64,000 bases of DNA from an uncultured Carboxylicivirga sp. (lineage in GTDB: Bacteria > Bacteroidota > Bacteroidia > Bacteroidales > Marinilabiliaceae), in assembly GCA_947503525.1 (NCBI GenBank), contig CANNEA010000002.1:744001-808000 (forward strand), read 5' to 3'. Below, one piece after another: positions 2,258-19,220 of this stretch. How positions within the stretch are numbered: the stretch's first letter is position 1; the number at the start of each line of letters is the position of its first letter. The notes under the pieces were generated by a model. The model was not told the origin of the DNA, searched no databases, and saw nothing but the letters and a program-made list of their open reading frames with translations. A program made the translations under genes and the position numbers.

Positions 2258-2288
2258 TTTGTTATGTAAGCTTAGGATTATATTTTTG
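2258..2288 (+). promoter_or_regulatory. Promoter of the chemosensory operon
   Basis: TTTG at 2258-2261 and TATTTTTG at 2281-2288 are separated by 19 nt, matching the Bacteroidota consensus TTTG-N(17-23)-TAnnTTTG. It lies 68 bp upstream of the receptor gene start and is the best promoter seen before the 17-gene cluster. Confidence 0.65.
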
Positions 2289-2356
2289 TTCAAATACGCA
2301 ATAATAGAATCGAAATAAGAAATTTAAGCCGGCAAAAGAAAATTAACAATAAGCAA

Positions 2357-4066
2357 ATGAAGAATATCAAACTTAATATTGCTCAAAAATTACTCTTTGG
2401 ATTTGGTGTGATTCTGGTACTTATAGCTATTAATGGTATTTGGACGTTTTCAACATTAACATCCAGTAAAAACCTAAATAGTAAACTTACGGGTACCTAT
2501 TCTCCATCAGCTGAAAAGCTTAATCGCTTATCAGCAATGGTAACAAATTCCACCATGCTTGTGAGAAGTTGGGTTTTTATTGATAAGCAATCTGATACTC
2601 CCGATAAAATCAGACTTAAGGAATTACATACCGATGTGTATCCGCAATTGCGTGATGAAATAAAAACATTTTATACCGATTGGGATGAAGCTGATGTGAA
2701 AGATGCGAATGTTATTTTTCACGAAGTTGATTCACTGTTTGAGATGCAGCAGTATGTAATGAGTAGCCTTAACTCCTTTAACGCCTACGAAGACGTTATG
2801 GTTCTTTTTGAGGTTGAGCCTCAGGTTCAGGATGGTGGCGAAATTATCGAGTTAGGAAATCAGGTGAATTATCGCATTGCCACATTGGCTGGAAAATATT
2901 TAACAGCGAGTGATGAGGCTTTAGTTGAAACCAATGGTAGTTTTACTGTTTTACAATGGGTTATAATTATAATGAGCCTATTGGTAATTTTAGGAGCTAC
3001 AGGAACCGCTTACTTATTATACAATTCAATTGTAAGTCCTCTGAATAAAGGGGTAAATTTTGCACAAGCCATTGGTAAAGGTGACCTTACCGCTACTGTA
3101 GATATTGATCAAAGTGATGAGATTGGAGACTTGGCGAAAGCTTTAGTTATAATGGCTGATCAATTAAAAACGACAGTGCTTACCATTAAAGGTAATGCTA
3201 ACGATTTGGTAACTTCCAGCTCGCAACTTAAGACAAGTTCAATGCAATTGTCTAAAGGATCAGCAGACCAGGCAGCTTCAGCGGAAGAAGTATCTACTTC
3301 CATTGAAGAAATGGTGGCTAATATCGACCAAAATACAGACAACTCAATACAGACAGAGAAAATTACGGTTGAAACAGCAAGTGATGTAGGTGTAGCAGAT
3401 AAGCTATCTTCACAGGCAGCAAAAGTAATGAAGGATGTTTCAGAGAAGATTACCATAATTGGTGATATTGCTTTCCAAACAAATATTCTTGCCTTAAATG
3501 CAGCGGTTGAAGCTGCAAGAGCAGGTGAGCATGGTAGAGGCTTTTCTGTGGTGGCAGCGGAAGTTCGTAAGTTGGCCGAAAGAAGTAAGTTGGCAGCGGA
3601 TGAAATTGTTTCGTTGGTTAAAACCGGATTAAAGGTGTCGCAGGAAGCAGGTGAAAAATCTAAAGCTCTTGTACCAGACATTGAAAAGACGACACAGCTG
3701 ATTAAAGAAATTTCTGCGGCAAGTATGGAGCAGAAAACTGGAGCAGAGCAAATTAATTTGGCTATGCAACAGCTGAATATGATTACTCAGGAAAATGCTT
3801 CATCATCGGATGAGCTAACTCAAAGTTCAGACCAGTTGGCGAACTTAGCCGATAACTTAAAAGAGGCGGTTAGCTTCTTTAATATTGGCGATGGTGACAC
3901 TGTGAAACAAAAAGTGAAAGCAAAGCCTGAATCGAAAAAGGTAAAGGCACCTGCTGCTACAAAAACAGCTAAAGTGACCGACAAAAAGGAGACCTCAAAG
4001 AAAGAGAGCAATCCTTTTACAAATTTCGATAAGGATTTTGATATGGATAATTACGAGAAATTCTAA
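2357..4066 (+). CDS. Methyl-accepting chemotaxis protein (transmembrane receptor)
   Basis: 569-aa chemoreceptor. Residues ~12-32 form TM1; ~33-195 an extracytoplasmic, mostly helical ligand-binding domain of four-helix-bundle type; ~197-223 TM2; then a HAMP linker ([19 protein letters not shown]). The signalling hairpin tip is clear at ~372-396 ([20 protein letters not shown]), the most conserved MCP motif. Glu/Gln-rich helix segments ([13 protein letters not shown]) are candidate methylation sites for the CheR/CheB/CheD encoded downstream. The C-terminus is a Lys/Ala-rich linker ending in FDMDNYEKF rather than the NWETF-like CheR-docking pentapeptide. First gene of the operon; the only receptor in it. 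Ligand unknown. Confidence 0.95.
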
Positions 4067-4077
4067 GAATTTAGTTT

Positions 4078-4389
4078 ATGGATAATTTACCATATAAAGT
4101 AATTTATGACGAGCTGCCTGAAAAAGCGATTATTCGCTTTTCAGGTCAGCTAATTATAAATTTTATTGAAAGTATAACCGAAGTGGTTAAGGAGCGAGTT
4201 AAAACGTCAAAAAATCTTGAAATACAGGTGGATAATCCCGACAGCATGGATGTAACCTTTATTCAGTTACTTTTGGCCTTAAAGAACACTTTTGAAACCG
4301 CTGGTAAAGAGGTTAGTGTTTCTGCTGAATTGAAAGATGAGCTTCGCACTCTTATCGATAATTCGGGATTTAATTATGTGCTTAATTAA
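4078..4389 (+). CDS. STAS-domain protein (possible anti-sigma-antagonist/MlaB-like)
   Basis: 103-aa single-domain protein with the alternating beta-alpha pattern of STAS proteins: AIIRFSGQLIINFIESI, LEIQVDNPDSMDVTFIQLLLALK, and a final helix before SGFNYVLN. The MDVTFIQLL segment aligns with the MDSSGLGVL/VDTAGLQLL loop that carries the phosphorylated Ser/Thr in SpoIIAA/RsbV proteins; a Thr is present at the second hydroxyl position. It lies 11 bp after the receptor and 24 bp before cheY. Since the last gene of the operon encodes a SpoIIE-type phosphatase, the two could form a partner-switch pair (inference); no matching RsbW-type kinase is in the window. Confidence 0.7.
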   Translation: MDNLPYKVIYDELPEKAIIRFSGQLIINFIESITEVVKERVKTSKNLEIQVDNPDSMDVTFIQLLLALKNTFETAGKEVSVSAELKDELRTLIDNSGFNYVLN

Positions 4390-4413
4390 TCAAAATAAAT
4401 AGAACATTAGATT

Positions 4414-4779
4414 ATGGCTAAAACAGTTCTTATCGTTGATGATTCAGAAAGTATTCGCGAAGTAGTCAACTTTACCCTAGAAAATGAAGGTTACGATGTG
4501 TTAGTTGGTGTCGACGGAGAAGATGCTCTGAAGTTTCTTGACGGTCGTACAATTGACATTGTTATTACTGACTTACATATGCCTAACTTGGATGGTCTTG
4601 GACTTATCCGTAAAGTTAGAGAAATGGAAGCCTACAAACATATTCCAATTTTGTTTCTGACTACAGAGTCGCAAGCATCAAAGAAAATGGAAGCAAAACA
4701 AGCAGGTGCAACCGGTTGGATTATCAAGCCATTCGTGCCAGCTAAATTATTAAGTGCGATTACTCGCGTTCTACGATGA
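4414..4779 (+). CDS. cheY: CheY-like single-domain response regulator
   Basis: 121 aa, receiver domain only. Acidic pocket D9/D10, phosphoacceptor D53 (VITDLHMPNLDG), switch T83/T84 and K105 (IIKPF) are all present, so it should be phosphorylated by CheA. There is no output domain, as in diffusible CheY. The stop codon overlaps the next start (ATGA at 4776-4779), showing tight coupling with the stand-alone HPt gene. With no flagellar switch genes in view, the target of CheY~P is unknown. Confidence 0.92.
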   Translation: MAKTVLIVDDSESIREVVNFTLENEGYDVLVGVDGEDALKFLDGRTIDIVITDLHMPNLDGLGLIRKVREMEAYKHIPILFLTTESQASKKMEAKQAGATGWIIKPFVPAKLLSAITRVLR

Positions 4780-5174
4780 TAGATAAAATCAAACATATCT
4801 TTATTGAGGAAACCTCTGGTGATTTGCAAGTGATACAACGCGAACTTGAGACCGCTGTATCAGAAAGTATGTGTTCTACCACAGTTGATAAGGTATTCAG
4901 AGCCATGCACACCATAAAGGGATCCGGGCCTATGTTTGGATTTAGCCATCTTCCGGAAATTACCTTGCCTGTTGAAATGGCATATCGAAATCTGAGTGAT
5001 GGAAATTTAGAGTTAAGTAATCAAATTATTGACAAAACAAAAGATGTTGTTTCTCTTATTCAGGATGTGCTGGATATGGATGACGACCATTTGCCGCGAA
5101 TTGAAGAAGAAAAGCAAATGCTAATTCGTTATTTTAACAATATCAACCGGTTAAACGATCGAACTAATGATTGA
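4776..5174 (+). CDS. Stand-alone HPt (CheA P1-like) phosphotransfer protein
   Basis: 132 aa. The motif AMHTIKGSGPMFGF carries the phospho-accepting histidine at residue 45. The whole N-terminal half parallels that of the CheA encoded next: both begin MIDK.K..F.EE and both place the His at residue 45 in FRAMH(S/T)(L/I)KG. This points to a duplicated and separated CheA P1 domain. It overlaps cheY by 4 nt and cheA by 8 nt. Likely role: additional phosphate acceptor or sink for CheA, or a shuttle to another regulator (inference). Confidence 0.88.
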   Translation: MIDKIKHIFIEETSGDLQVIQRELETAVSESMCSTTVDKVFRAMHTIKGSGPMFGFSHLPEITLPVEMAYRNLSDGNLELSNQIIDKTKDVVSLIQDVLDMDDDHLPRIEEEKQMLIRYFNNINRLNDRTND

Positions 5175-7206
5175 TAAGTTTAAAGATAAATTTGTTGAGG
5201 AATCGCTCGATAATATCAATGATCTTGAAGAAGCTTTATTTCTTCTTGAGAAAGATATGAAAAACAGCGAGATAATTGAACGTATCTTTCGGGCAATGCA
5301 CTCCTTAAAGGGAGGTGGAGCCATGTTTGGTTTTAACCACTTAAGTGAGTTTACCCATCATCTTGAAACTGTTTTTGATTTGGTGCGCAACAATAAGTTA
5401 AATGTAGATAATGATATTATCTCCTTAACTTTTGAAGCGATTGACCAGATAAAGCATCTCTTGCAAATTGGTGATTTAACCGAAGCTGGTGACATTGCTC
5501 ATCAACAAGCTTTTATAAAGCGTATTGAAGCCGCATCTAACTTAGATGGTACCTCACCTAAAGACACACAGGATTCTACTAGTGAGACACAGGTAACTAA
5601 AGATGACGGATCAAAAAACTTCCTTATACACATCAAACCTAACAGTGATATTTTAAGGAATGGTACTAATCCGTTTTACCTATTGGATGATTTACATGCG
5701 ATGGGAACGGCTAAAGTTCTGGCATTTACTAAAGATGTGCCGGACTTAGTACAGTTTCAGCCAATTTCAAACTACTGTAATTGGCAAGTCATATTGAACA
5801 CCACAGAATCGGTAAATGAAATAAAAGATGTTTTCATTTTTGTAGAGGATGAGTGTGAAATTGACATTCAGCAACTTAATGTAGGAAATATTAGCCAATC
5901 TACTGCCTTAGATAAGGCGATTGAGTTGGCAAATACTGAGCAAAAGCCATTAACTAAAGAGCAGATTGAAGCCTTTGATGGCAATAAGGAAGGTGAAGAA
6001 AAGAAAGATACCAAAAGAAGAGTTCAGCTTAAAGAACACAAAATATCAAGTATAAGGGTTAATTCAAACAAGATTGATGATCTTGTAAATCTTGTTAGTG
6101 AATTGGTAACAATTCAGGCACAATTGAACCTTTATGCTGAGAAAGATGGTAACAATGATATTGTATCATTAGCCGAAAACATACAAAAGTTAAGTCGTCA
6201 GTTAAGAGATAATGCATTTGAGATAAGTCTGATTCCTTTGCAAAGTGAATTAATGCGTTTTCAACGTTTGGTAAGAGACTTATCCAAAGAGCTGGATAAA
6301 GAAATTGATTTTGTTATTGAAGGTGGTGATATTGAATTGGATAAAAACATCATTGAACACCTGACTGATCCATTGCTACATATAATTCGTAATTCTGTCG
6401 ATCATGGTATTGAAATGCCTGATGAACGAATTAAGGATGGAAAATCACCGAAAGGGACAATTATATTCAAGGCATTTTATTCCGGAGCAAGTGTTATTGT
6501 TCAGGTAATTGATGACGGTAAAGGTATTGATCCGGAGTTTATTAAAAGCAAAGCCATAAGCAAAGGCTTGATTGCTGAGAATGTAGAGTTAAGCCGAAAA
6601 GAAATATTTGACCTTGTTTTTCTGAGTGGTTTCTCAACAAAAGATCAAGTTTCGGATGTTTCAGGACGCGGTGTTGGAATGGATGTTGTGAAAAAGAAAA
6701 TTGGTGAAATTCGAGGCGAAGTAAGTCTTGATTCCGAAGTTGGCAAAGGCACAACATTGACATTAGAACTTCCATTAACGCTTTCGATAATTGATGGTTT
6801 ATTAGTGAAGGTAACAAACAACCAGTATGTTATTCCTATTGCTAATATTGAAAAGATACATGCCATTAGCGATGTGAAATTCGGATCAAGTTTCAATCAT
6901 GTGGTTACAATTGATGAGGCACAATATCCTTATATTGACCTGAGAGAAACATTTGGAGCTGAGGCAATTCAAAAGGGAACAGAACAATTGATACTGGTTA
7001 AGTTTGAAACTAAAAAGGTAGGCTTATTAGTTGATCAGGTAATTGGAGAATACCAAACTGTTGTTAAGCCACTTGGACGATTCCTTAAAAAGCAAGAAAA
7101 TATATCTGGTGCATCTATAATGGGAGATGGAACGATATCATTGGTTATTGATACCAATCGTTTAATCCACAATAATGCCATGAAGAAATACCGAACTAAG
7201 AAGTAA
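5167..7206 (+). CDS. cheA: Chemotaxis histidine kinase CheA
   Basis: 679 aa with full CheA layout: HPt/P1 at ~1-110 (His45 in AMHSLKGGGAMFGF), a response-regulator-binding-like region at ~150-240, dimerisation helices at ~290-350, ATPase ~355-535 with N-box HIIRNSVDHGIE (about residues 403-414), G1 DDGKGID and G2 SGRGVGMDVV, and a CheW-like domain at ~540-670. Central kinase of the array: phosphorylates CheY (4414) and the CheB receiver (10559), is coupled to the receptor by the two CheW proteins. Starts 8 nt inside the preceding HPt gene. All catalytic motifs look intact. Confidence 0.96.
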   Translation: MIDKFKDKFVEESLDNINDLEEALFLLEKDMKNSEIIERIFRAMHSLKGGGAMFGFNHLSEFTHHLETVFDLVRNNKLNVDNDIISLTFEAIDQIKHLLQIGDLTEAGDIAHQQAFIKRIEAASNLDGTSPKDTQDSTSETQVTKDDGSKNFLIHIKPNSDILRNGTNPFYLLDDLHAMGTAKVLAFTKDVPDLVQFQPISNYCNWQVILNTTESVNEIKDVFIFVEDECEIDIQQLNVGNISQSTALDKAIELANTEQKPLTKEQIEAFDGNKEGEEKKDTKRRVQLKEHKISSIRVNSNKIDDLVNLVSELVTIQAQLNLYAEKDGNNDIVSLAENIQKLSRQLRDNAFEISLIPLQSELMRFQRLVRDLSKELDKEIDFVIEGGDIELDKNIIEHLTDPLLHIIRNSVDHGIEMPDERIKDGKSPKGTIIFKAFYSGASVIVQVIDDGKGIDPEFIKSKAISKGLIAENVELSRKEIFDLVFLSGFSTKDQVSDVSGRGVGMDVVKKKIGEIRGEVSLDSEVGKGTTLTLELPLTLSIIDGLLVKVTNNQYVIPIANIEKIHAISDVKFGSSFNHVVTIDEAQYPYIDLRETFGAEAIQKGTEQLILVKFETKKVGLLVDQVIGEYQTVVKPLGRFLKKQENISGASIMGDGTISLVIDTNRLIHNNAMKKYRTKK

Positions 7207-7211
7207 GCACA

Positions 7212-7658
7212 ATGAAAGATCAATTTACATCACTGATATCGTTTTATGTGAACAAAGAAGTTTTCGCATTTGACACACTTAAAGTGCGAAACATTCTTGA
7301 ATTTGGGAAAATTACCTGGGTGCCTAATGTAAAGGATTACCTTTTGGGGGTAATTAATTTACATGGTAATATTATTCCAATTGCCGATTTAAGAGTGATG
7401 ATGCAGATGGAAAATATTGAAAATACTAATGATACAGCAGTTATTGTTGTTTCTAACGACGATAAGGCCGGGTCCTTAATTGGAATTGTTGTAGATAGTG
7501 TAAATGAAGTATTTGATACTGAGGGGTTGGAAGTGCAGGAATCCGTTTTTAATGGAAATACAGGGGTGATAAGTTCATTTTTAGGCTCTATTCATAGGAA
7601 CGAGGAATTTGTACACATTATAGATCTCGACGAGACTGTCAAGGAAATTGAAAATTAA
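7212..7658 (+). CDS. cheW: CheW adaptor protein (first copy)
   Basis: 148 aa, single CheW domain: SFYVNKEVFAFDTLKVRNILE, then VKDYLLGVINLHGNIIPIADLR (the conserved [VI]xG[VI][VI]NLRGxxIPVxDLR motif), ending in the SFLGSIHRNEEFVHIIDLDE strand. It bridges receptor and CheA. Five bases after cheA. Less charged and less similar to canonical CheW at its N-terminus than the second copy, so the two are probably not interchangeable. Confidence 0.92.
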   Translation: MKDQFTSLISFYVNKEVFAFDTLKVRNILEFGKITWVPNVKDYLLGVINLHGNIIPIADLRVMMQMENIENTNDTAVIVVSNDDKAGSLIGIVVDSVNEVFDTEGLEVQESVFNGNTGVISSFLGSIHRNEEFVHIIDLDETVKEIEN

Positions 7659-7670
7659 AAAGACCAATTG

Positions 7671-8156
7671 ATGAGTGATCATATCAACGCATATTTAACT
7701 TTTTCTATAGGGCAGAATGCATTTGGTGTTCATGTTGAAAAAGTTGTTGAGATACAGGAGTATACTAAACCAAAGCAAGTGCCTGAAAGTTTAGCCTATA
7801 TGAGAGGTGTTATCGACCATCGGGAAGAGGTTATACCTGTTATTGACACTGGATTAAAATTCAATCTTGGTGAAATTGAAATTACTCCGCAATCATGTAT
7901 TGTTGTTTTGGAGATTGATAAACCAGATGGAAACGGCAAGTTCAGTATTGGCATTTTGGTTGATGCAGTTTCTGACGTATTTGAATCAGATCCTGAAAAG
8001 GTAAAAGTTATTGAGAATGACTTTAAACCCGGTTATATATCCGCTACATACAAAAACAATGACTCCTTAGTAATGATATTGAATTCGGATAAGGTATTTA
8101 CCGAGACTGATATTATTGCTATAGATCAGATAATGGGCAATATCGATAAAGAGTAG
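7671..8156 (+). CDS. cheW: CheW adaptor protein (second copy)
   Basis: 161 aa from the ATG at 7671; an in-frame TTG one codon earlier is an alternative but the ATG is preferred. CheW domain with YLTFSIGQNAFGVHVEKVVEI, LAYMRGVIDHREEVIPVIDTGLKF and GILVDAVSDVFE. Twelve bases after the first cheW. Two adaptors for one visible receptor suggest either paralog specialisation or service to receptors encoded elsewhere in the genome (inference). Confidence 0.92.
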   Translation: MSDHINAYLTFSIGQNAFGVHVEKVVEIQEYTKPKQVPESLAYMRGVIDHREEVIPVIDTGLKFNLGEIEITPQSCIVVLEIDKPDGNGKFSIGILVDAVSDVFESDPEKVKVIENDFKPGYISATYKNNDSLVMILNSDKVFTETDIIAIDQIMGNIDKE

Positions 8157-8158
8157 GA

Positions 8159-9025
8159 ATGTTTACAGGGAAGGAAGATAACGCTCAAAACGATTTTGAT
8201 TGCTTTAAGGCAGAATTGTCGGATGCCGATTTTTTGGCCTTCAGTGAATTCATTTATAATGAATTTGGCATAAAGATGCCACCGATTAAAAGAGTTATGT
8301 TACAAGGACGTTTATTAAAACGTATCCGCGAGCTTAATATGCAATCGTACACTGAGTACAAGAATTATTTTTTTAGCCAGGAAGGACAAAAAAAAGAGAT
8401 CTTTAACTTTTTGAATGTTGTTACAACCAATAAAACAGATTTTTTCCGAGAACCTGTTCATTTCGATTTCTTGAGAAACGAGATATTACCAGAGTTTGTT
8501 GGAAACAATCGTAACTTAAAAATTTGGAGCGCTGGATGTTCCAGTGGGGAAGAACCATATACAATATCAATCGTTTTAAACGAATTTAAAACAGAAAATC
8601 CATTATTCAATTTCTCAATATTGGGATCTGATATTTCTAACAAGGTACTTACAAATGCCTCAAAAGGAATATATGCTGAGCATAAAGTTGCTCTCATTCC
8701 TATGGATTTGAAAAAGAAATACTTTTTGAAAAGTAAAGATCGCGACAATCCATCGGTTAGGGTAAAGCCTGAATTACAAAAAAGTATTGCTTTAAAATAT
8801 GTCAACTTAATGGATAATCATTACAATGTTAATGATTCCTTTGATGTTATCTTTTGCCGAAATGTTTTAATCTATTTCGATAGAGCTACTCAGGAGAGAG
8901 TTATTTCTAAATTGAGTCAGTATTTAAAACCCGGCGGCTATTTTTTTATTGGTCATTCCGAATCATTATCCGGAATGGATGTGCCTTTGAAGCATGTTAA
9001 GCCAACAATATTTATTAAAGAATAA
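8159..9025 (+). CDS. cheR: CheR protein-glutamate methyltransferase (first, intact)
   Basis: 288 aa. An all-helical CheR N-terminal domain is followed by the catalytic domain with TTNKTDFFRE (receptor-glutamate site Arg), the SAM motif WSAGCSSGEEPYTI, the ribose-binding GSDIS, and FCRNVLIYFD. All key positions are present, so it should methylate receptor glutamates using S-adenosylmethionine. Starts 2 bp after the second cheW stop. No C-terminal TPR or pentapeptide-binding extension. Confidence 0.94.
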   Translation: MFTGKEDNAQNDFDCFKAELSDADFLAFSEFIYNEFGIKMPPIKRVMLQGRLLKRIRELNMQSYTEYKNYFFSQEGQKKEIFNFLNVVTTNKTDFFREPVHFDFLRNEILPEFVGNNRNLKIWSAGCSSGEEPYTISIVLNEFKTENPLFNFSILGSDISNKVLTNASKGIYAEHKVALIPMDLKKKYFLKSKDRDNPSVRVKPELQKSIALKYVNLMDNHYNVNDSFDVIFCRNVLIYFDRATQERVISKLSQYLKPGGYFFIGHSESLSGMDVPLKHVKPTIFIKE

Positions 9026-9054
9026 AATAAATCCGGAAATATAAAAAATAAATT

Positions 9055-9954
9055 ATGAGCGAGTTAACGGATAAGCAACTATTGCGCGAATTACGATTAA
9101 GACTTGAGGAAAGGAAAAAGTTCGATAACGAAATGAAGGAGCTTTCAAAAGACTTTCAGTCAGTTACTAAAAAACTGAAGGAATCTGAAGCTTTAAAGAG
9201 TCACTTTATTTCTAATATATCCAACGAGATTGTAAATCCATTTACATCAATTCTCGGATTGTCAAAAGCCATTTTGTCTGTTGAGAAGAACGACTGGAAG
9301 AAAGTGGTTTCGATGGTTGCCTTAATACATAGTGAAGCATTTAACCTGGATTTTCAGCTTCGAAATATTTTTGTTGCTGCTAAAATTGAAGCCGGTGAAA
9401 TAGCACCAAATATCACCAAGGTGAATATCCGAAGTTTAGCTCAAACTGTGATCGATTCGTTTAATATCATCTCGCGCAAGATGGGTATTGATATTGATCT
9501 GCAATTCAATGTCGAATATGGTTTTGGAAAGAATTTTTATTTCAAAACAGATTCTGAAAAGCTAAAACTTATCCTAAGCAACCTTATTAACAACGCCTTG
9601 AAATATAGCTATAAGGATAGCAAGGTAATCGTTAAGATATGGGTTGATGAGGATATCTTAAATATATCTGTACAGGATTACGGAACCGGTATTTCTGAGA
9701 AGAATCAAAAGATTATTTTCGAGCGTTTCAAACGTCTTGATTCCGGAATAAATTCAATTAATCGCGGTCATGGTTTAGGATTATCTATTACTAAGTCATT
9801 GCTAGATGTATTAGGAGGTAAAATTGAAATTGATAGTAAAAAAGGAGAAGGTTCAACATTTTCAATTGAACTACCAGAAGCTAAGAATGTAATAGAAGGC
9901 TTCAGTGGTGATGGTAATGATGTATTCTTTGATGACGATGATGAGATTTTTTAA
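9055..9954 (+). CDS. Histidine-kinase-like protein lacking the phospho-accepting His
   Basis: 299 aa, no membrane segment. A coiled-coil (about 1-45) leads into a HisKA-like helix whose H-box reads ISNISNEIVNPFTSILGLS: the position of the invariant His (SHEIRTP) is Asn57 (codon AAC at 9223-9225). The ATPase half is well preserved: N-box LSNLINNALKYS, G1 DYGTGIS, F-box FERFKR, G2 GHGLGLSITK. It ends in a very acidic tail (DVFFDDDDEIF). So it should bind ATP but cannot autophosphorylate in the usual way; it could act as a dimer partner, phosphatase or nucleotide sensor (inference). It sits between cheR and cheD in the operon. Confidence 0.88.
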   Translation: MSELTDKQLLRELRLRLEERKKFDNEMKELSKDFQSVTKKLKESEALKSHFISNISNEIVNPFTSILGLSKAILSVEKNDWKKVVSMVALIHSEAFNLDFQLRNIFVAAKIEAGEIAPNITKVNIRSLAQTVIDSFNIISRKMGIDIDLQFNVEYGFGKNFYFKTDSEKLKLILSNLINNALKYSYKDSKVIVKIWVDEDILNISVQDYGTGISEKNQKIIFERFKRLDSGINSINRGHGLGLSITKSLLDVLGGKIEIDSKKGEGSTFSIELPEAKNVIEGFSGDGNDVFFDDDDEIF

Positions 9955-9964
9955 GGAAAATTAG

Positions 9965-10558: not shown

Positions 10559-11635
10559 ATGGAAAAAAAGATTCGGGTATTAGTTGTAGACGATTCGGCG
10601 GTTGTAAGACAAAGCTTATCGTCTATTCTTGAATCAGATCCTGATATCGAAGTAATGGGAACAGCCGCAGATCCTATTATTGCCGTGAAGAAAATAATGA
10701 AGGAGATTCCCGATGTTATAACTCTCGACATCGAGATGCCAAGAATGGATGGGCTTACTTTCCTTCGTAAAATAATGTCGCAGCATCCAATCCCTGTCGT
10801 TGTTATTTCAAGTCTGACAACGGAGGGTACAGAAGTCGCCATGAAAGCGCTTGAATATGGGGCTAGTGAAATAATTGGTAAACCGGCGATGAATGCCGCT
10901 CAATTCATCAACGAATCCAAAATAATGCTTTGCGATGCCGTTAAAGCTGCTTCACATGTGAAGCTTAAACGCAGGAAAATTGCAGCTCCAACCGCTCCAA
11001 AAGTCAGTCCAAAATTATCGGCTGATGTAATGATTGATAAGGCTCCTTCAATCAAGCGGATTATTGATACTGAAAAAATAATTGTGCTTGGTGCTTCTAC
11101 CGGAGGCACTGAGGCTATACGAAATTTCTTGAAAGCATTACCTGATCGAATGCCGGGTATTGCAATAGTTCAACATATGCCTGAAGGTTTTACAAAATCA
11201 TTTGCTAATAGCCTGAATAATATATGTGGCCTAGAGGTAAAAGAGGCAGAACAAGGCGATCGTTTATATCAAGGACGTGTTTTAGTGGCTCCGGGTAATA
11301 AGCATATGTTATTAAAAAGAGTAGGAAAGGAATACACTGTAGACGTTAAAGAAGGTCCTTTGGTAAATCGCCACCGTCCTTCTGTTGATGTTTTATTCCG
11401 ATCAGCCGCACGTTATGCTGCTAATAATGCCACAGGTATATTGCTTACCGGAATGGGTAATGACGGTGCTAAAGGATTACTTGAATTAAAAGAGTCCGGA
11501 GCCCATACCATTGCTCAGGATGAATCATCATCAGTAGTTTTTGGTATGCCAAAAGAAGCTATTAAATTAGGGGCTGCTGAGGAAATTTTATCTTTGGAAA
11601 AAATAGCACCATATTTGCTTTCAAAGCTGAAATAA
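10559..11635 (+). CDS. cheB: CheB receptor methylesterase with receiver domain
   Basis: 358 aa. Receiver domain at ~1-120 (VDDSAVVR, phosphoacceptor in [11 protein letters not shown], Lys in IIGKP) linked to the C-terminal esterase (~170-355). The catalytic triad is intact: Ser in [10 protein letters not shown], His in IVQHMPEG, Asp in GMGNDGAKG. Phosphorylation by CheA should activate removal of methyl groups from the receptor. This is the canonical CheB of the cluster; a second, receiver-less copy lies at 15253. Confidence 0.95.
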
Positions 11636-11680
11636 TCTAACCAAATCTTAAGTTGTCGTTTAAATCTAACGCCGTTTCTT

Positions 11681-13558
11681 ATGGGTAAAGAAAATATAAA
11701 AAATATCAGAAGTAAATTTACGTTAAGGGGCTTTTTTATTGGCCTCTTGTTGTACGTTTTTACTTTGGCTTTTAGTTTTAGCGTTTTTGAACATGTTGAT
11801 ATGAAAGTGTCAGTTCCTAACGCTTACATCATGTTTCCTGGATTGTGGGTGGTAACTTTTGCTCCTTTTATCGCAGCATTAGTTGGGTATATTATCTCGG
11901 GCAACTTCTATAATATCATTAAAAAACAACGTAAGCACCTTAAATACGAGGCCAACCGTAGTAATCAGGTTCTTGATTTTGTGGACAACCTTCGTAAAGA
12001 TAATTTTAAAGCTGCTTTACACCTGAATGAAAATAAAGATGTATTAGCCAAATCATTACTTCGCCTTCGCGACTATCTGATTCAAAGTAAAAAGGATGTT
12101 GAGCAACGAAGAGTTGAAGAGGAGCAGCGTAATTGGGTGACTCAGGGTTTGGCTCAATTTGGCGAGATACTTCGAAAGGAAAGTGATAATCTAGAAGATT
12201 TAAGTTACAATATCATAAGTTATCTGGTTGATTATATGAAAATCAATCAGGCCGGTTTTTACTTGTTGAATAGCTTAAGTAAAAGCGAAAAGTATTTTGA
12301 GTTGACGGCTTGCGTGGCTTATGATCGTAAGAAGTTTGCTGACAAGAGAATTAATTGGGAAGAAGGTTTAATTGGTCGCTGTGCTCAGGAAAAAGAGACC
12401 ATTCACATGACAGATGTGCCCAATGATTATCTCAATATCACTTCTGGTTTAGGGGAAGCCAATCCGAGATCAATATTGATCGTACCACTTAAGACCAATG
12501 ATGAGGTTTATGGGGTGCTTGAAATGGCGACGTTTAAAGAATTTGATGAGTTCGAGATAGAGTTTGTTGAAAAAACAGCTGAGAGTATTGCATTAACTAT
12601 TCAGTCAGTACAAAATACAATTCGCACCACTAAACTGCTCAAAGAGACTCAGAATCAGGCTGAACGTATGTCGCAGCAAGAAGAAGAACTGAGACAGAAC
12701 CTTGAGGAAATGCAGGCTACCCAGGAAGAGAGTGACAGAAGGGAAGTGGAGATGAAAGGTATTCTTGAAGCCATTGACCATGCCGCAATCAGTTCTGAGT
12801 TTGAGGTAGATGGTACATTAATTAATGTGAATCAAAATTTCCTTAGAACCTTCCGATATAATCCAGAGGAGATAGAAGGACAGAACATTAAAATATTCTT
12901 CTTTAAGGATGATGTTACAGAGTTAGACCAGATTTTAACGGATTTAAGAAACGGTCATAATTTCAAAGGTCGTGTTAAGCGTAGAACAAAAATGGGTGAT
13001 GAAATTTACCTGTTAAGTACGTATACGCCAGTTATTGATCATGAAGGCGAGATCATAAAGATATTAAGCTTAGAGAATGATATTACCGAGCAGGTAAAAA
13101 TGGAAGAAGAGCTTAAGCACAGTAAGGATGAACTCGGTGTAATGTTAGAGGAAGCGAAGAGAGAAGTTACAGAACAGTTCAAAGAAATTGAAGGCGTTAA
13201 AATTCGTAACGAAAAAACTCTGGAAGGTGCACTGGATGCTATAATTACTACAAATAAGGAAGGTATTCTTGAATTCTTTAATGTAGCTGCCGAAAAGCTT
13301 TGGGGTTACGATAGGAATGAAGTTCTGGGACAGCATGTTTCTATGTTATTCTCCACTGAAACTGTAAATAACGACGAATTCATATCAGCTTTCGTTTCCA
13401 ATGACAAAGAAAAGATCATTGGCGAACGCAGAGAGGCTCCGATCAAAAACAAAGTGGGTAGTGAGGAAGCAGTTTTATTCCTTTTATCTGAAGCACAAGT
13501 AGGCGAGGATCACTCGTATACTGCCTTTATTCAGAATGTTGAGGTAGAGTTATTTTAA
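11681..13558 (+). CDS. Membrane GAF-PAS-PAS sensory protein without output domain
   Basis: 625 aa. Two membrane segments (~17-37 and ~51-73) enclose a short loop (VDMKVSVPNAYIMFPGLW); a helical linker follows, then a GAF domain (~160-305, with NWEEGLIGRCAQEKETIHMTDVPNDY), a Gln/Glu-rich coiled coil (~320-360), a PAS domain (~355-475) closing with a 'DITEQVKMEEELK' PAC end, and a second PAS (~515-620, DAIITTNKEGILEFFNVAAEKLWGY). No kinase, cyclase or MCP domain is attached. It resembles the front parts of the 16574 protein and of the 15826 protein, so these form a related trio. Probably a signalling scaffold for the che operon (inference). Confidence 0.85.
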   Translation: MGKENIKNIRSKFTLRGFFIGLLLYVFTLAFSFSVFEHVDMKVSVPNAYIMFPGLWVVTFAPFIAALVGYIISGNFYNIIKKQRKHLKYEANRSNQVLDFVDNLRKDNFKAALHLNENKDVLAKSLLRLRDYLIQSKKDVEQRRVEEEQRNWVTQGLAQFGEILRKESDNLEDLSYNIISYLVDYMKINQAGFYLLNSLSKSEKYFELTACVAYDRKKFADKRINWEEGLIGRCAQEKETIHMTDVPNDYLNITSGLGEANPRSILIVPLKTNDEVYGVLEMATFKEFDEFEIEFVEKTAESIALTIQSVQNTIRTTKLLKETQNQAERMSQQEEELRQNLEEMQATQEESDRREVEMKGILEAIDHAAISSEFEVDGTLINVNQNFLRTFRYNPEEIEGQNIKIFFFKDDVTELDQILTDLRNGHNFKGRVKRRTKMGDEIYLLSTYTPVIDHEGEIIKILSLENDITEQVKMEEELKHSKDELGVMLEEAKREVTEQFKEIEGVKIRNEKTLEGALDAIITTNKEGILEFFNVAAEKLWGYDRNEVLGQHVSMLFSTETVNNDEFISAFVSNDKEKIIGERREAPIKNKVGSEEAVLFLLSEAQVGEDHSYTAFIQNVEVELF

Positions 13559-13567
13559 CTGATTGGT

Positions 13568-14419
13568 ATGGATGAGGGGAAAGCATTTAGGGAGTATCTG
13601 AATGAATTGAAGAAGCACACGCCATATGATTTTAGCGAGTATTCTGATAGTTCAATTAATAGACGCTTGCAAAAGATCCTTAAAGATTATGACATAAGCA
13701 TGGATCAGCTCCATGAAAGGACTAAATCTGATCAGGAATTTGTTGAAAAAGTTGTTGAGGAGATTACGGTTAATACAACGGAACTTTTTCGAGATCCTGA
13801 TATTTGGACTTCTCTTTATGATAATATCTATTCAAGTCTAAAAAATAAAAAAACAATTAATATCTGGCATGCTGGATGCAGTTCCGGTATGGAGGTGTAC
13901 TCAAACCTTATCATCTTAAATGAACTTGGTTTATTGGAGCGGACTAAGGTGTTTGGTACCGATATTAATGCCAGAATGATTAAGCAAGCCAAGTCAGGTA
14001 AGTTTGCTCTGCAATTCAATAAAATACAATTGGATGCCTTTAAAGCAAGTTTGAAGAAACGTCCAATTCAAGGTATATCGTCAATCGACTTTGATAAATA
14101 TTTTATTTTCAATAAGAGTGAAGATACGCTTGAGGCAAAAGATATAATTCGTAAAGTGCCTTGGTTTGTCAAACATGATTTGGTTAATGAAGAAATACCT
14201 TTTTACAATAGGTTTGACCTTATCTTTTGTAGAAATGTTTTAATCTATTTTAATTCAAGTCTTCAATCAAAGATATTTAAGCTTTTTCACGACCAAATGT
14301 TTGCAGGAGGATGTTTATTGCTGGGGAATCATGAAGGTATGTCAGGGTTTTATAAGACCAAATTCTCAAAAAGTGGACCTGTTTTCTTGAAAAATAATTC
14401 CTTTCATTTTAAATATTAA
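13568..14419 (+). CDS. CheR-family methyltransferase (second copy)
   Basis: 283 aa, CheR fold. Motifs: TVNTTELFRDPDIW (active Arg region), HAGCSSGMEVYSNLI (SAM loop, with the usual 'EEPY' changed to 'MEVY'), FGTDINARMI (ribose Asp kept), FCRNVLIYFN. Likely SAM-binding and perhaps active, with a different target from the first CheR. Follows the GAF-PAS protein by 9 bp. Its N-terminal domain begins FREYLNELKKHTPYDFSEYSDSSINRRLQ, the pattern seen in PAS/CheB-CheR hybrid proteins. Confidence 0.9.
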   Translation: MDEGKAFREYLNELKKHTPYDFSEYSDSSINRRLQKILKDYDISMDQLHERTKSDQEFVEKVVEEITVNTTELFRDPDIWTSLYDNIYSSLKNKKTINIWHAGCSSGMEVYSNLIILNELGLLERTKVFGTDINARMIKQAKSGKFALQFNKIQLDAFKASLKKRPIQGISSIDFDKYFIFNKSEDTLEAKDIIRKVPWFVKHDLVNEEIPFYNRFDLIFCRNVLIYFNSSLQSKIFKLFHDQMFAGGCLLLGNHEGMSGFYKTKFSKSGPVFLKNNSFHFKY

Positions 14420-14422
14420 GAA

Positions 14423-15247
14423 ATGGCTGTGAACTATAACATAAGGGAATTAAGAGCTTTGTCAGAACATTTGACTACAGTCACAGGTATACCTTTTGAT
14501 CAAATGAATCAGTCATTTTTAAAGCGTAGGTTGAATTATTTCAACGATAAAAAGGGTTTTAGAAAAGGAGAGCAACTGATTGAATTCATAATGAAAGATG
14601 AGTTCAAGGAAGAGTTTATTGCTTACATGACAATTCCAGTAAGTGAGTTGTTTCGTGATGCTGGCCTATGGAGAAATATAAGGCATTATTTAACTGAGTT
14701 AGCTTTCGTTTCGGAAATTAATGTTTGGATTCCGCAAGTATCATCAGGCGAAGAGTTGTATACGCTACTTATAATTGCGAAAGAAGAAGGGATCATAGAT
14801 AAGCTAAATGTTACGGTAGGTTATTCATCCAATTATAAAATAGATTGTATTCAAAAAGGCTATTTAAGAGCCAAAAGGATGGATACCAACTTATATAACT
14901 ATAAACGCTTTGAGGGTAAGGCGGCCTTAGAGGATTATTTCGATACTAAAGAAGATGGACTTTATTTAAAGAATAATCTAATGGATGGAGTAAAGTTTAA
15001 GAAGGGATTGGTTACCGCAGGACAACCTGATGAAAAAATGGATCTTGTTCTTTTTCGAAATGCCATGTTGTATTATAAAAAGGATTATCAATCCATTTTT
15101 AAAAATGCCATTGATGATTGTCTAAAGCCGGGAGGCTTGTTGTGTGTTGGAGTTAAAGAAATATTACCATCACCTTTTTCCGATCGATTTGAATGTATCG
15201 ATCAGAAAGAAAAAATTTATAAGAAGTTTAAAGCCTTAATGGATTAA
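14423..15247 (+). CDS. Degenerate CheR-like protein (third copy)
   Basis: 274 aa, aligned end to end with the two other CheR proteins but with eroded SAM-binding motifs: 'xAGCSSGEEPYT' is WIPQVSSGEELYT, the ribose-binding 'GTDI' is GYSSN (Asp lost), 'TTNxTxFFR' is MTIPVSELFR, and 'CRNVLIYF' is FRNAMLYYKK. The fold is clearly kept, and the frame is open with no damage, so the gene is maintained but probably not an efficient methyltransferase. A regulatory or docking role alongside the preceding CheR is plausible (inference). Four bases separate it from that gene. Confidence 0.82.
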   Translation: MAVNYNIRELRALSEHLTTVTGIPFDQMNQSFLKRRLNYFNDKKGFRKGEQLIEFIMKDEFKEEFIAYMTIPVSELFRDAGLWRNIRHYLTELAFVSEINVWIPQVSSGEELYTLLIIAKEEGIIDKLNVTVGYSSNYKIDCIQKGYLRAKRMDTNLYNYKRFEGKAALEDYFDTKEDGLYLKNNLMDGVKFKKGLVTAGQPDEKMDLVLFRNAMLYYKKDYQSIFKNAIDDCLKPGGLLCVGVKEILPSPFSDRFECIDQKEKIYKKFKALMD

Positions 15248-15252
15248 GCGAT

Positions 15253-15819
15253 ATGAAATTAAAGTATAAAGCAGTGGTTATAGGTGGTTCCGCTGGAAGT
15301 TTTTCTGTGGTTAGTAAGATATTGTCTAAAATTGACCCTAAATTTCCATTGCCTATTATTCTTTGTTTGCATCGCTTAAAGCATGTTCGATCCGGCTTGG
15401 TTGAAGGGATTAATTTAAAATCAAATCTAAGCGTAGTTGAACCAAATGATAAAGAAAAGATAGTTGCTGGTAAGGTTTATCTGGCACCATCTAATTATCA
15501 TTTATTTATCGAATTTGATGGCTCGTTTAGTTTATCAACAGAGGAACCTCTTAACCATAGTCGTCCTTCAATAGATCATACCTTATCTTCTTCATCCTAT
15601 TTTTTTAGAGAGAAGATGATAGGAGTTCTTTTGACAGGGGCCAATAAGGATGGTGCAAAAGGAATGAAAGATATTGCGGACAAGAAGGGTATAACACTGG
15701 TACAGGATCCAGATACTTGTGATGTAGATACAATGCCTAAAATGGCTTTAAGAATGATGACGCCTACAAAGGTGTTATCGCCAGATGGAATTATTGATTA
15801 TTTAAACCAATTAGCCTGA
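15253..15819 (+). CDS. CheB methylesterase domain protein without receiver
   Basis: 188 aa, esterase domain only. Catalytic residues are present: Ser in IGGSAGSFSVV, His in LCLHRLKHV, Asp in LTGANKDGAKG. Lacking a receiver domain it cannot be controlled by CheA phosphorylation directly. Lies 5 bp after the degenerate cheR-like gene. In many bacteria such a CheB domain is fused to CheR and PAS domains; here the same parts (PAS, CheR, CheR-like, CheB) occur as separate adjacent genes. Confidence 0.9.
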   Translation: MKLKYKAVVIGGSAGSFSVVSKILSKIDPKFPLPIILCLHRLKHVRSGLVEGINLKSNLSVVEPNDKEKIVAGKVYLAPSNYHLFIEFDGSFSLSTEEPLNHSRPSIDHTLSSSSYFFREKMIGVLLTGANKDGAKGMKDIADKKGITLVQDPDTCDVDTMPKMALRMMTPTKVLSPDGIIDYLNQLA

Positions 15820-15825
15820 CATAAT

Positions 15826-16569
15826 ATGAGTAAGAATAAGTATATCTATTTGTTAGGAGTATTATTCCTTATTATTTCGATCGTGAAATACATTTTATTT
15901 CCAGCGGTTTTGCCGCCGGAATATTTTACGTTTGAAATGCTTGGTTTATTTTCGGTGCTTGGCTTAATTTTTTATGTTGCCAGGGCATATTTACCAAAGT
16001 CAATGTGTGTTTCAGAGGAGTTGGAAACTCAGAACGAAAATCTAATAAAGGACAATACACGTTTGAAGGAACGTATTTTAGAATTAGAAGCAGAAGAAGA
16101 TGAGAGCCTAAGTAAACAAAGCAATAAACAACAATTGTTGGCTTCATTGGATTCAATATGGCTTAATAAAGCTGAAGCCGAAGATTTAGGTAAAGAACTT
16201 TTTAATCTGATTAAACAACAATTTGAGCTTGTTGCGGGTATAATTTATAAGAAGTCTGATAATGGTAGTTTTACTTTGTCACATCAATATGGATTAGATA
16301 AAGATTGGGTGGTTGGAGAAGTAAATGTTGGAGAAGGAATTCATGGGCAGAGCATTAAGGAGGGTAAAGCATCTGAAATTACAGATGTCCCTGAGGATTA
16401 TCTTGAAGCCTCGTCAGGTACTGGTAGTGCTAAACCAGGCTATATTTATATACTGCCTTTATTGGATGTTGATAATGAAAGTTTACTTATTGAAATTGCT
16501 TCATTTAAAGAGTTGGGCTTACATCTTATATGGAACGAATTTTTAGTAAGCAAAAATAAAATGGACTAA
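15826..16569 (+). CDS. Small membrane GAF-domain protein
   Basis: 247 aa. Two membrane segments (~5-27 and ~35-55), a coiled coil (~60-95, LETQNENLIKDNTRLKERILELEAE broken here for length), and a GAF domain (~105-245) with NVGEGIHGQSIKEGKASEITDVPEDYLEASSG, closely matching the GLIG..A.E.E.I..TD.P.DY..I.SGLG motif of the 11681 and 16574 proteins. It therefore looks like a shortened version of those two, lacking PAS and output domains. Four-base gap to the next gene. Confidence 0.8.
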   Translation: MSKNKYIYLLGVLFLIISIVKYILFPAVLPPEYFTFEMLGLFSVLGLIFYVARAYLPKSMCVSEELETQNENLIKDNTRLKERILELEAEEDESLSKQSNKQQLLASLDSIWLNKAEAEDLGKELFNLIKQQFELVAGIIYKKSDNGSFTLSHQYGLDKDWVVGEVNVGEGIHGQSIKEGKASEITDVPEDYLEASSGTGSAKPGYIYILPLLDVDNESLLIEIASFKELGLHLIWNEFLVSKNKMD

Positions 16570-16573
16570 GCAT

Positions 16574-19180
16574 ATGGTAAAATTAACAAATCAGTTAAAT
16601 AAGATGTTTAGCCGTGGTGCTATAAAAGAACGAGATTGGTATATGCTAATCATTGGCTTAATTATGCTTCTTGTTCTTGTATGGTCCGGTTTCCTTTCGT
16701 TTACAAATTTATACTTCTCAGTACCCAATATTATTATAATTCACAGATCAATATTGGTATGGTTTATTGATATTCTTGTGGTATCTACTCCGTTCATTAT
16801 TCTTTATATTCTTAATTATAATAAAACCCAAAACGTAAAACTTAACAAAGAACTCAGACAACTTCAACAGCGCGTAAATCTTAGTATTGAGTTAGCTGAA
16901 AAAATACGAAAAGGGGATTTAGATGACATAAAATACGATGATAGTCAGTTGTCTCAAACATTGGTTAATCTCGGTGAAAACCTAAAACGCAATAAAGAAC
17001 AGGAAGATATTTACAATTGGATTGCACGCGGTAAAGAAGTGATTTCAGATATACTTCGATCCCACAATAAAATTGATGAACTTACCGACGATGTTCTGCG
17101 TGGTATCATTGAATATTGCGATGGCGTTCAAGGCACACTTTATCTTTTAGAAAATAATAAGCTGGTCAATGTTTCAACATATGCTTACAATCGTAAGCGA
17201 TACGAAAAACAAGAAATCTCTATTGGAAATGGATTAATTGGAGAGGTAGCTTATGAGAAGGAGATGATTTACCGGACAGAATTGCCTGATGATTATTTTA
17301 ACATAACTTCTGGTATACTGGGGGATCGTAAGCCTAAAAGTTTAATTGTGGTTCCTTTACTTCAGGAAGAGAAGTTGCAAGGCGTGTTCGAAATCGCGTT
17401 TTTGAAGAATAAATTGCCGAATCATGTTCTGCAATTGGCTAATGAGTTGAGTAACATTGTTGGTAGGACAATATATAATCTGAAGGTTAATCAAAAGACT
17501 GAGATTCTTTTAAAGGAGTCTCAGGAAATGACGGAGACCCTTCAGAATAATGAACGTCAACTTCAGGAGAATGCTACTGAGATGCTGGAGGCTCAAGAGG
17601 AACTGGAGAAATCAAACCATGCCTTAGAAAGCCAGATTCAAGAGGTGGAGCACGCACAGCAAAGGTTAGAGGCCCTGTTAACAAATGCCTCGGAGTTTAT
17701 TTCTATATACAACGAGGAGCAAGTGCTTCTATTTGAGAGTCCTTCAGTAAAGAATATCTTGGGCTATTCCGAGGAGGATAATGTGACTGGAATGGATCCT
17801 GAACTACTTACACCACGTGGATATAAGACGATAAATAATTTGTTCCAGTATTTATTGGAAACACCTGGCGGGGAACAAATGGCTCAGTATACTTACCTTA
17901 AGAAAGATGGGAAGAAGCTATTTTTGGAAACTAAGGGTAAAAATCTTCTGCATGATCCGGCGATTAAAGGAATAATATTTAATACACAGGACATTACCGA
18001 ACGAAAAAGGGCTGAAAAGGAAGAGCGAATGAAGAGTAGAATGCAATCGCTTTCTGAGAATTCACCTGATATGATAATACGTATCAACACTGGCGGGAAG
18101 TTAGTTTATGTGAATCCAAGAGTGTCGTCTTTTATTGGTTTACCTGCATCGGAAATTGTTAAAAAGAGAGTCAATGAACTGGCAATTGATGACCGCTTCA
18201 AAGACTACATGAAAAGTGCTCTTCTCGAGATCAGATCCGGATTGGAACAAACCATAAGTGAAGTTGAGATTGATTCAATGCTTGGTGTGCGTATAATGGA
18301 AATTAAAGCTATTCCTGAGTTTAACGAAGAAAAGGATTTGGAATCCATATTGTTTGTGGCTCATGATATGACCGAGTTCAAACAGATTGAGCAAGAAATA
18401 AAAGAGAAGAATAAAAAGATTTCGGATAGTATAAATTACGCCCAACGTATCCAAACAGCAATTTTACCTGATTCGGATTTATTACAGCAGTTTTTCCCTC
18501 GATCATTTATTTTCTATCGTCCAAAGGATGTGGTTAGTGGTGATTTTCCATGGATGTTTAAGAAGGACAACCACTTTTATATTGCTGCTGTTGATTGTAC
18601 GGGTCACGGTGTTCCAGGAGCGCTGTTGTCGTTTATTGGATACTTCCTGATGAATAATATTGTGAATGCCAGCGAGGAGCTATCGGCAGCTGAGTTATTG
18701 GATTTACTCCACCTTGAAGTTAGAAGAACCTTAAGACAGGATCAAGAAGGGGCGAATGGTAGAGATGGCATGGATTTAGCGTTGGCAAAAATTGATTTAG
18801 AGTCTAATAAGCTTGAATTCTCAGGTGCACATAATCCTTTGTATTATTTATCTGAAGGCGAATTAACGGTCTACAAAGGTTCGCGAAAGGGAATTGGTGG
18901 TAAACCTCTTCTTAAGAAAATAGAAAAGGACTTTGAGAACCATGAGATTCAATATAAAAAGGGTGATCAGTTCTTTATATTCTCGGATGGTCTGCCGGAT
19001 CAATCAGGAGGTCCAAAGGGTCGCAAGTATCAAACGAAACGCATTAGAGAAACCTTAACCGAAGCACCTAATCAAACCATGGCGCATTTCGAACGTCAAT
19101 TCTCAAATGATTTTTATGATTGGATGGGAGATGAATACAAACAGGTGGATGATGTCCTCTTAATAGGACTTGAGTTATAA
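16574..19180 (+). CDS. Membrane GAF-PAS-PAS-SpoIIE (PP2C-type) phosphatase
   Basis: 868 aa, last gene of the operon. Two membrane segments (~22-44, ~58-80), linker helices, GAF (~155-295), long coiled coil (~310-370), PAS (~365-480, ending DITERKRAEKEE), PAS (~485-605), a helical linker (EKNKKISDSINYAQRIQTAILP, the usual lead-in to bacteroidotal SpoIIE domains) and a SpoIIE/PP2C phosphatase (~630-868). Metal-binding acids are visible in DVVSGDF, AVDCTGHGVPGA, FSDGLPDQ and QVDDVLL, so it should be an active Ser/Thr phosphatase. The STAS protein at 4078 is a candidate substrate (inference). Confidence 0.92.
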   Translation: MVKLTNQLNKMFSRGAIKERDWYMLIIGLIMLLVLVWSGFLSFTNLYFSVPNIIIIHRSILVWFIDILVVSTPFIILYILNYNKTQNVKLNKELRQLQQRVNLSIELAEKIRKGDLDDIKYDDSQLSQTLVNLGENLKRNKEQEDIYNWIARGKEVISDILRSHNKIDELTDDVLRGIIEYCDGVQGTLYLLENNKLVNVSTYAYNRKRYEKQEISIGNGLIGEVAYEKEMIYRTELPDDYFNITSGILGDRKPKSLIVVPLLQEEKLQGVFEIAFLKNKLPNHVLQLANELSNIVGRTIYNLKVNQKTEILLKESQEMTETLQNNERQLQENATEMLEAQEELEKSNHALESQIQEVEHAQQRLEALLTNASEFISIYNEEQVLLFESPSVKNILGYSEEDNVTGMDPELLTPRGYKTINNLFQYLLETPGGEQMAQYTYLKKDGKKLFLETKGKNLLHDPAIKGIIFNTQDITERKRAEKEERMKSRMQSLSENSPDMIIRINTGGKLVYVNPRVSSFIGLPASEIVKKRVNELAIDDRFKDYMKSALLEIRSGLEQTISEVEIDSMLGVRIMEIKAIPEFNEEKDLESILFVAHDMTEFKQIEQEIKEKNKKISDSINYAQRIQTAILPDSDLLQQFFPRSFIFYRPKDVVSGDFPWMFKKDNHFYIAAVDCTGHGVPGALLSFIGYFLMNNIVNASEELSAAELLDLLHLEVRRTLRQDQEGANGRDGMDLALAKIDLESNKLEFSGAHNPLYYLSEGELTVYKGSRKGIGGKPLLKKIEKDFENHEIQYKKGDQFFIFSDGLPDQSGGPKGRKYQTKRIRETLTEAPNQTMAHFERQFSNDFYDWMGDEYKQVDDVLLIGLEL

Positions 19181-19187
19181 TATAACA

Positions 19188-19220
19188 AAAGCCAGATTCA
19201 CTTGAGTCTGGCTTTGTTTT
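19188..19220 (+). terminator. Terminator of the chemosensory operon
   Basis: Perfect 9-bp stem AAAGCCAGA (19188-19196) / TCTGGCTTT (19207-19215) with a 10-nt loop, followed by TGTTTT on the plus strand. It lies between the convergent SpoIIE gene and ilvA and may serve both. Confidence 0.85.

Follow-up and report, generated by a model that had tools for sequence, protein, structure and literature searches.

The window analysed here is the whole stretch of 64,000 nucleotides from an uncultured Carboxylicivirga sp., and its main subject is a chemosensory operon of 17 tightly packed genes (positions 2357–19180, all on the + strand; open reading frame calls and Pfam). Judged by gene content and synteny, this operon is two signalling modules joined end to end, in one family (Marinilabiliaceae). 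Module 1 extends from a methyl-accepting chemotaxis protein (MCP) through CheB1 and includes the GAF-PAS protein behind it (GP); in content and synteny it is the chemosensory operon of the order Bacteroidales. Module 2, referred to as the cassette, consists of CheR2, pseudo-CheR3, CheB2, a small GAF protein and a GAF-PAS-SpoIIE phosphatase. We regard it as somewhat probable that the operon holds two adaptation systems, the second of which would act on a helix of GP. The genes are as follows.

2357–4066, +, MCP with HAMP and signalling domains, a sub-threshold 4HB match and the C-terminal pentapeptide NYEKF
4078–4389, +, STAS protein, Thr of D[IVL]T kept in 11/11 rows
4414–4779, +, CheY, a single receiver domain (Pfam)
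4776–5174, +, free HPt protein, His kept in the 8/8 rows covering it
5167–7206, +, CheA with HPt, dimerization, ATPase and CheW domains (Pfam)
7212–7658, +, CheW-1 (CheW search and Pfam)
7668–8156, +, CheW-2 (CheW search and Pfam)
8159–9025, +, CheR1, motifs kept (Pfam and alignment)
9055–9954, +, pseudo-histidine kinase, His replaced by Asn, ExxN and the ATPase G2 box kept
9965–10441, +, CheD (Pfam)
10559–11635, +, CheB1 with a receiver domain (REC and CheB; Pfam)
11681–13558, +, GP: GAF, a 79-residue helix and two PAS stretches, no output domain (Pfam, AlphaFold2)
12683–12730, +, proposed methyl-accepting motif EELRQNLEEMQATQEE, residues 335–350 of GP
13568–14419, +, CheR2, FR and S-adenosylmethionine (SAM) site motifs kept (Pfam and alignment)
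14423–15247, +, CheR3, putative pseudo-methyltransferase (Pfam and alignment)
15253–15819, +, CheB2 without a receiver (no REC), Ser, His and Asp kept in 92/92 rows
15826–16569, +, small GAF protein, N terminus hydrophobic by eye (sub-cut-off GAF match; synteny)
16574–19180, +, GAF-PAS-SpoIIE phosphatase, catalytic Asp residues kept

The 17 genes listed in the initial annotation agree with the reading frames and Pfam, including a kinase lacking its His (here Asn) and one degenerate CheR, which is CheR3 and is degenerate in its family. The count of three GAF/PAS membrane proteins and a SpoIIE phosphatase included the SpoIIE protein twice.

Synteny of the two modules

Module 1 contains the parts of a CheA/CheW chemosensory system: CheA with its HPt, dimerization, ATPase and CheW domains, CheW, an MCP and CheY. 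The CheW search gave three CheW-domain places in the genome, all within the operon and one of them CheA's own. There are 19 MCPsignal places over the cut-off, and SprA is encoded. The absence of motility genes stated initially is therefore at most true of the operon, no search for flagellar or pilus genes having been made.

The nearest named loci to that of the window are from the Marinilabiliaceae and Carboxylicivirga. The initial annotation had proposed a search for the same gene order in other Bacteroidota genomes. The arrangement of the final ten genes, CheR1-HK-CheD-CheB1-GP-CheR2-CheR3-CheB2-GAF-SpoIIE, was conserved in 25 of the 27 family loci (26 distinct, L054 and L089 being the same place). 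One of the two that do not conform, L052, is cut by the contig inside GP; the other, L181, is a true exception. In the latter (L181:1-4104) no core che gene is present in the 4.1 kb upstream of GP and the cassette; a 904-residue frame stands there instead.

Outside the family each module was found without the other. All 20 stretches with core che loci from other families of the order lack CheR2-CheR3-CheB2-GAF-SpoIIE; the pseudokinase is present in 17 of them and a GP homologue (>300 bits) in 11. Several of these stretches are short, and six (L251, L257, L265, L266, L267 and L269) stop at GP or shortly after it; the nearest cassette CheR3 in those six genomes lies on a separate contig or over 1 Mb from the core locus. 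Since GP homologues occur in core loci without the cassette, GP is assigned to the core operon, with the cassette joined behind it. Directly 5' of STAS, 13 of the 20 core stretches carry a frame of about 560–615 residues, and these frames may be homologous; the two that were scanned (L259:3405-5135 and L266:10932-12773) had no Pfam match. At L171:1-10764 a core che operon is followed directly by GAF-SpoIIE without CheR2-CheR3-CheB2, which shows what reads as a second, partial joining of the modules.

Relatives of the SpoIIE protein outside the family were found at 80 loci, of which 43 have adjacent CheR/CheB genes, 29 do not and 8 are at contig edges. These classes were set by best match and upstream length, with 'without' meaning that a stretch of 6 kb or more held neither CheR3 nor CheB2 (a CheR2-like gene still occurs in 8 of the 29). 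Some assignments were made manually: L094 (in which CheR3 was named R2) and L103 were placed in 'with', as was L113 on CheR2 and CheB2 alone, and L155, with a weak CheB2 match, was kept in 'without'. CheA, CheW, CheR1, CheD and MCP were all absent from 42 of the 43 cassette loci, L113 being the exception, within the stretches examined (2.2 to 17 kb upstream of SpoIIE). A small gene lies between CheB2 and SpoIIE in 42 of the 43, and CheR2 is present in 36. Away from SpoIIE, CheR2-CheR3-CheB2 was found at 19 of 20 loci (L209 has no CheR2), and 17 of the 20 also hold the small GAF gene.

The cassette is thus shown, at the level of gene order, to be separable from the che core, and its occurrence without the core, together with that of the core without the cassette in other families, indicates two modules joined in one family. 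Accordingly, the synteny named initially as evidence against a single unit, in which only the core che genes stay together, is seen in other families of the order but not in the family of the window. A chemosensory array with a phosphatase output, as first suggested, stays plausible, with the amendment that synteny outside the family splits the operon in two.

SpoIIE-holding genomes outside the family were used in part, 52 for the CheW search and 38 for the CheR3 search. No CheW match was found in 11 of the 52, and no MCP match in ten of those 11; among CheW-less genomes with completeness of 90% or more and contamination of no more than 5%, 9/9 were MCP-free. These ten are draft assemblies, so the absence is not absolute. 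All ten have a CheR3-like match and a match to the helix motif described below.

Cassette enzymes and the proposed methylation helix

In CheR2 the Arg of the FR motif is kept in 91/91 rows and the Asp of TDIN in 90/91. CheR3 retains FR (89/89) and has lost the AGCS and TDIN residues of the SAM site, and on this loss it is called a pseudo-methyltransferase. In a quick unrooted tree of a 50-row sample, CheR1, CheR2, CheR3 and the CheR of fused CheB-CheR-PAS proteins formed four separate clades; in another of 35 rows, CheB1, CheB2 and fused CheB formed three. Neither CheR2, CheR3 nor CheB2 fell within the fused branches, and the idea that the adjacent CheR, CheB and PAS genes are a split fusion protein is not supported by these trees. 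The metal-binding Asp residues of SpoIIE are kept in all rows covering them. The invariant Thr of the STAS protein, a candidate phosphorylation site, is at or next to the canonical place.

In the motif EELRQNLEEMQATQEE of GP, Glu pairs recur every seven residues and have small residues behind them, as in the MCP methylation consensus. The 16-residue segment at GP 335 ranks fourth of 610 for conservation (27 family rows). In the AlphaFold2 model a single helix, residues 290–368, holds the motif (mean pLDDT 73.7, a modest confidence). Pfam gave GAF and PAS only for GP, with no MCPsignal domain and no histidine kinase. Definitions of the motif vary with the count: a strict form was used for GP, Glu or Gln at all six places for covariation in the SpoIIE protein, and the strictest form for hybrid-kinase loci. 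The strict motif is present in 27/27 family GPs; among core-operon GPs of the order, 9/11 keep RQNMEEL and two (L255 and L256) have decayed. A 38-position helix profile (A4) matched one place in the own genome, GP, at E <= 1e-5; this profile was built solely from motif-positive SpoIIE and GP proteins and is biased to that form.

Ten motif carriers in relatives, hand-picked from 14 frames in regions taken from the motif match list, were scanned for domains. GAF was found in all ten, HAMP in nine, PAS in eight and Cache in six (some HAMP and Cache matches below the cut-off); none of the ten has a histidine kinase or MCP domain, and one has a sub-threshold HPt match. Three carriers stand in tandem in L218. 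Two GAF-PAS motif receptors (L217 and L219) end in a hemerythrin domain, which suggests that they may sense oxygen or redox state. In fused CheB-CheR-PAS proteins similar Glu-pair repeats occur in cis in 12/12 cases, beginning 171–206 residues behind CheR. From these patterns the GAF-PAS helix is the likely target of CheR2 and CheB2, and its methylation is putative.

The motif was found in 88 of 295 genomes of the order, at up to 22 places in one genome. A CheR3-like protein (E <= 1e-51) is present in 83 of these 88 and in 30 of the other 207; the genomes are related, and the p value of the co-occurrence test was therefore not used. In a sample of 296 genomes of the phylum, the motif occurs in the own genome and three others, and CheR3-like matches at the same threshold occur in 30 besides the own. 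The three motif genomes outside the order are the three with CheR3 at E <= 5e-83, a cut drawn after the fact (next match 4.4e-68). Their loci read CheR3-CheB2-GAF-SpoIIE with no adjacent CheR2, and the SpoIIE protein carries RQNAEEM[QR]ATQEEL. Within the SpoIIE protein the motif is intact in 31/43 loci with an adjacent cassette and in 3/29 without. Where adjacency changed, an average of 1.3 of 4 pairs showed the motif changing with it, and none showed a change in the opposite direction. Loss of CheR/CheB was mostly rejected as an explanation for decay of the SpoIIE motif, as 35 of 38 genomes have a CheR3-like gene somewhere (E <= 1e-51; not in G077, G291 and G331).

Pseudokinase, operon borders and neighbouring gene

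The Asn-for-His replacement and ExxN of the pseudokinase are kept in 27/27 family rows and 18/18 core-locus rows (the row of the window is in both sets; 44 rows in total, 43 distinct places). CheX requires ExxN to act on CheY (PMC3510030). By analogy, we infer that the pseudokinase is a CheY phosphatase: it would take phosphate off CheY and so replace CheC, CheX and CheZ, for none of which Pfam gave a match among the 17 operon proteins. The pseudokinase might instead be a sensor of phospho-CheY and not a phosphatase, in the manner of the repurposed kinase DivL of Caulobacter, which we think rather unlikely. DivL is named a pseudo-histidine kinase (PMC9430884) and a repurposed kinase is reported to sense a response regulator (PMC4211667), and Asn at the His site stands together with the GLGL[ST] ATPase box in 18/18 rows; the CheX-type ExxN pair in every row and the lack of any CheC, CheX or CheZ match argue against a sensor.

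Within the operon 12 of the 16 gene junctions lie between -8 and 11 bp. The packing described initially, mostly overlaps or 2–15 bp, thus applies except at four wider junctions (24, 29, 45 and 117 bp). The widest, the CheD-CheB1 gap (10442–10558), measures 14–257 bp among family loci; neither in the window nor in any of 12 relatives tested does it hold a full match to the promoter consensus. The borders and the upstream neighbour are given below.

1632–2192, +, DUF4154 (YfiR/HmsC-like) gene, linked upstream neighbour of the MCP (Pfam)
2259–2288, +, candidate promoter TTG-N19-TATATTTTTG, match to the Bacteroidota -33/-7 consensus
19188–19215, +, terminator-like hairpin with a 12-pair stem, the longest stem of the terminator scan

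No second full match to the Bacteroidota consensus occurs on the + strand of 2357–19180. In the same gap of three relatives tested, L122 has a match and L088 and L124 do not. A sigma-70 promoter scan was uninformative (53 sites, 65 expected by chance). The promoter match and the hairpin bracket the 17 genes, as first described; the single transcript drawn from them is a candidate. The DUF4154 gene precedes the MCP in 7/7 family loci that extend past the MCP (two more stretches start within the MCP), and its product is possibly a periplasmic partner of the MCP.

Proposed mechanism, alternatives and meaning

Under two adaptation systems, module 1 would serve the MCPs of the genome via the one CheA found by the CheW search, and perhaps steer gliding. 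In module 2, CheR2 would add and CheB2 remove methyl groups on the heptad-spaced Glu pairs of the GAF-PAS helix. The substrate in the own genome would be GP, the sole carrier of the helix that was found there; relatives would use the SpoIIE protein itself as well as further GAF-PAS receptors. CheR3, with its SAM-site residues lost, may dock or orient CheR2. Since CheB2 has no receiver it would not be switched by CheA. Methylation would tune the action of GP on the SpoIIE phosphatase, and the STAS protein of the operon is the likely substrate of this enzyme (a partner switch). The joining of the modules in the Marinilabiliaceae would tie this phosphatase output to the array.

Several observations weigh against this reading. 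Methylation of the helix is a prediction from sequence, and the GP model is weak (pTM 0.35). No RsbW/SpoIIAB-like kinase is present in the operon, to which the search for one was confined; its single free HATPase gene matches HATPase_c at 92.3 bits and HATPase_c_2 at 26.9 bits, under the cut-off of 27.4. Thirty genomes of the order and the remaining 27 of the phylum sample have a CheR3-like match (E <= 1e-51) without the motif, and within the order such a match is absent from five genomes that do have the motif. The E value alone fails to separate true CheR3, a true cassette (G272) being matched at only 1.9e-52. Eight loci from CheR3-like, motif-less genomes were viewed (five of the 30 and three of the 27): six show another kind of CheR-CheB pair, next to a hybrid kinase, and two of these six have the strictest motif, L245 is ambiguous, and L248 (G260) is a true cassette in a motif-less genome. 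In L248 the CheR2-CheR3-CheB2 genes adjoin a 1421-residue frame that matches none of the queries. The link between adjacency and motif traces to four to six independent transitions with a sign test far from significant, and this covariation was rejected as proof because it does not reach significance on the tree. In the family of the window 0/28 rows have an intact SpoIIE coil despite the adjacent cassette, and L121 has a cassette with a decayed SpoIIE motif in a genome with six motif places.

The motif may instead be a conserved coiled-coil signal helix that is not methylated, its co-occurrence with CheR3 arising from shared history in signalling-rich lineages. We consider this unlikely: it accords with the position of the motif within a predicted long helix, with related genomes whose counts are not independent, with the few independent transitions and with genomes that have motif or cassette alone. 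It sits less well with heptad Glu pairs and small residues that resemble the MCP methylation consensus and stand in cis in 12/12 CheB-CheR fusions, and with the three motif genomes outside the order, which have the cassette and the strongest CheR3 matches. Given 19 MCPs over the cut-off, the kept catalytic residues of CheR2 and CheB2 and the action of CheR/CheB on MCPs in other bacteria, CheR2, CheR3 and CheB2 might also be extra adaptation enzymes for the MCPs, with the GAF-PAS helix conserved for coupling only. That is quite unlikely in our view, as CheR1, CheD and CheB1 are already a complete set, no MCP is in the stretch at 42/43 cassette loci, and a CheR3-like gene is present in the ten genomes in which neither MCP nor CheW was found.

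For the favoured reading of two adaptation systems the nearest precedent, by analogy, is RsbK-RsbM-RsbY of Bacillus cereus. RsbM is a CheR-type methyltransferase. It is reported to lack a cognate methylesterase and to methylate a signalling helix in the CHASE3-HAMP-GAF-S-helix sensor kinase RsbK, with a PP2C phosphatase acting downstream (PMC4574943). The proposal for the operon has the same outline, a methyltransferase for a helix that follows GAF in a membrane sensor and a PP2C phosphatase further downstream, and a CheR-type enzyme does lie next to a GAF sensor whose following helix holds Glu pairs. Unlike RsbK, which is a histidine kinase, GP and the ten chosen carriers have no kinase domain; the system of the window adds CheB and a pseudo-CheR, and its phosphatase is itself a GAF-PAS protein. 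In Shewanella oneidensis the partner switch formed by CrsR and CrsA is encoded at the che1 locus (PMC9855816). This locus is likewise a chemosensory operon that encodes partner-switch proteins, but the passages mention neither a further CheR/CheB set nor a methylation helix of the GAF-PAS kind. In fused CheB-CheR-PAS proteins a receiver-less CheB, a CheR and a Glu-pair helix also belong together, in one chain and in separate clades, whereas the window has separate genes. The six Bacteroidota hybrid histidine kinase loci similarly have a non-MCP CheR/CheB beside a sensor, but no SpoIIE protein, small GAF gene or adjacent CheR pair. Among the matches listed in literature searches on CheR/CheB/SpoIIE, MCP-free CheR and Bacteroidetes chemosensing with gliding (open papers, titles and the starts of abstracts), the cassette was not recognised, and the passages contained no statement that the genus Carboxylicivirga glides.

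In its wider form, which we regard as possible though a little short of probable, the cassette would belong to a methyl-accepting system free of CheA and MCPs. Cache-HAMP-GAF-helix-PAS receptors without kinase or MCP output would be adapted reversibly by a dedicated CheR, pseudo-CheR and receiver-less CheB, and read out by a GAF-PAS-SpoIIE protein sharing the helix. Such a system would stand alone in some Bacteroidales, have kin in one family outside the order and be spliced behind the chemotaxis operon in the Marinilabiliaceae. The targets of CheR/CheB outside chemotaxis operons are mostly unknown. Cassette genomes in which no MCP was found, together with a genome holding a single carrier, make the question of non-MCP targets directly testable. 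If the proposal is true, chemotaxis-style adaptation would extend to receptors that work without CheA, and phosphatase-based signalling in bacteria would gain a reversible memory.

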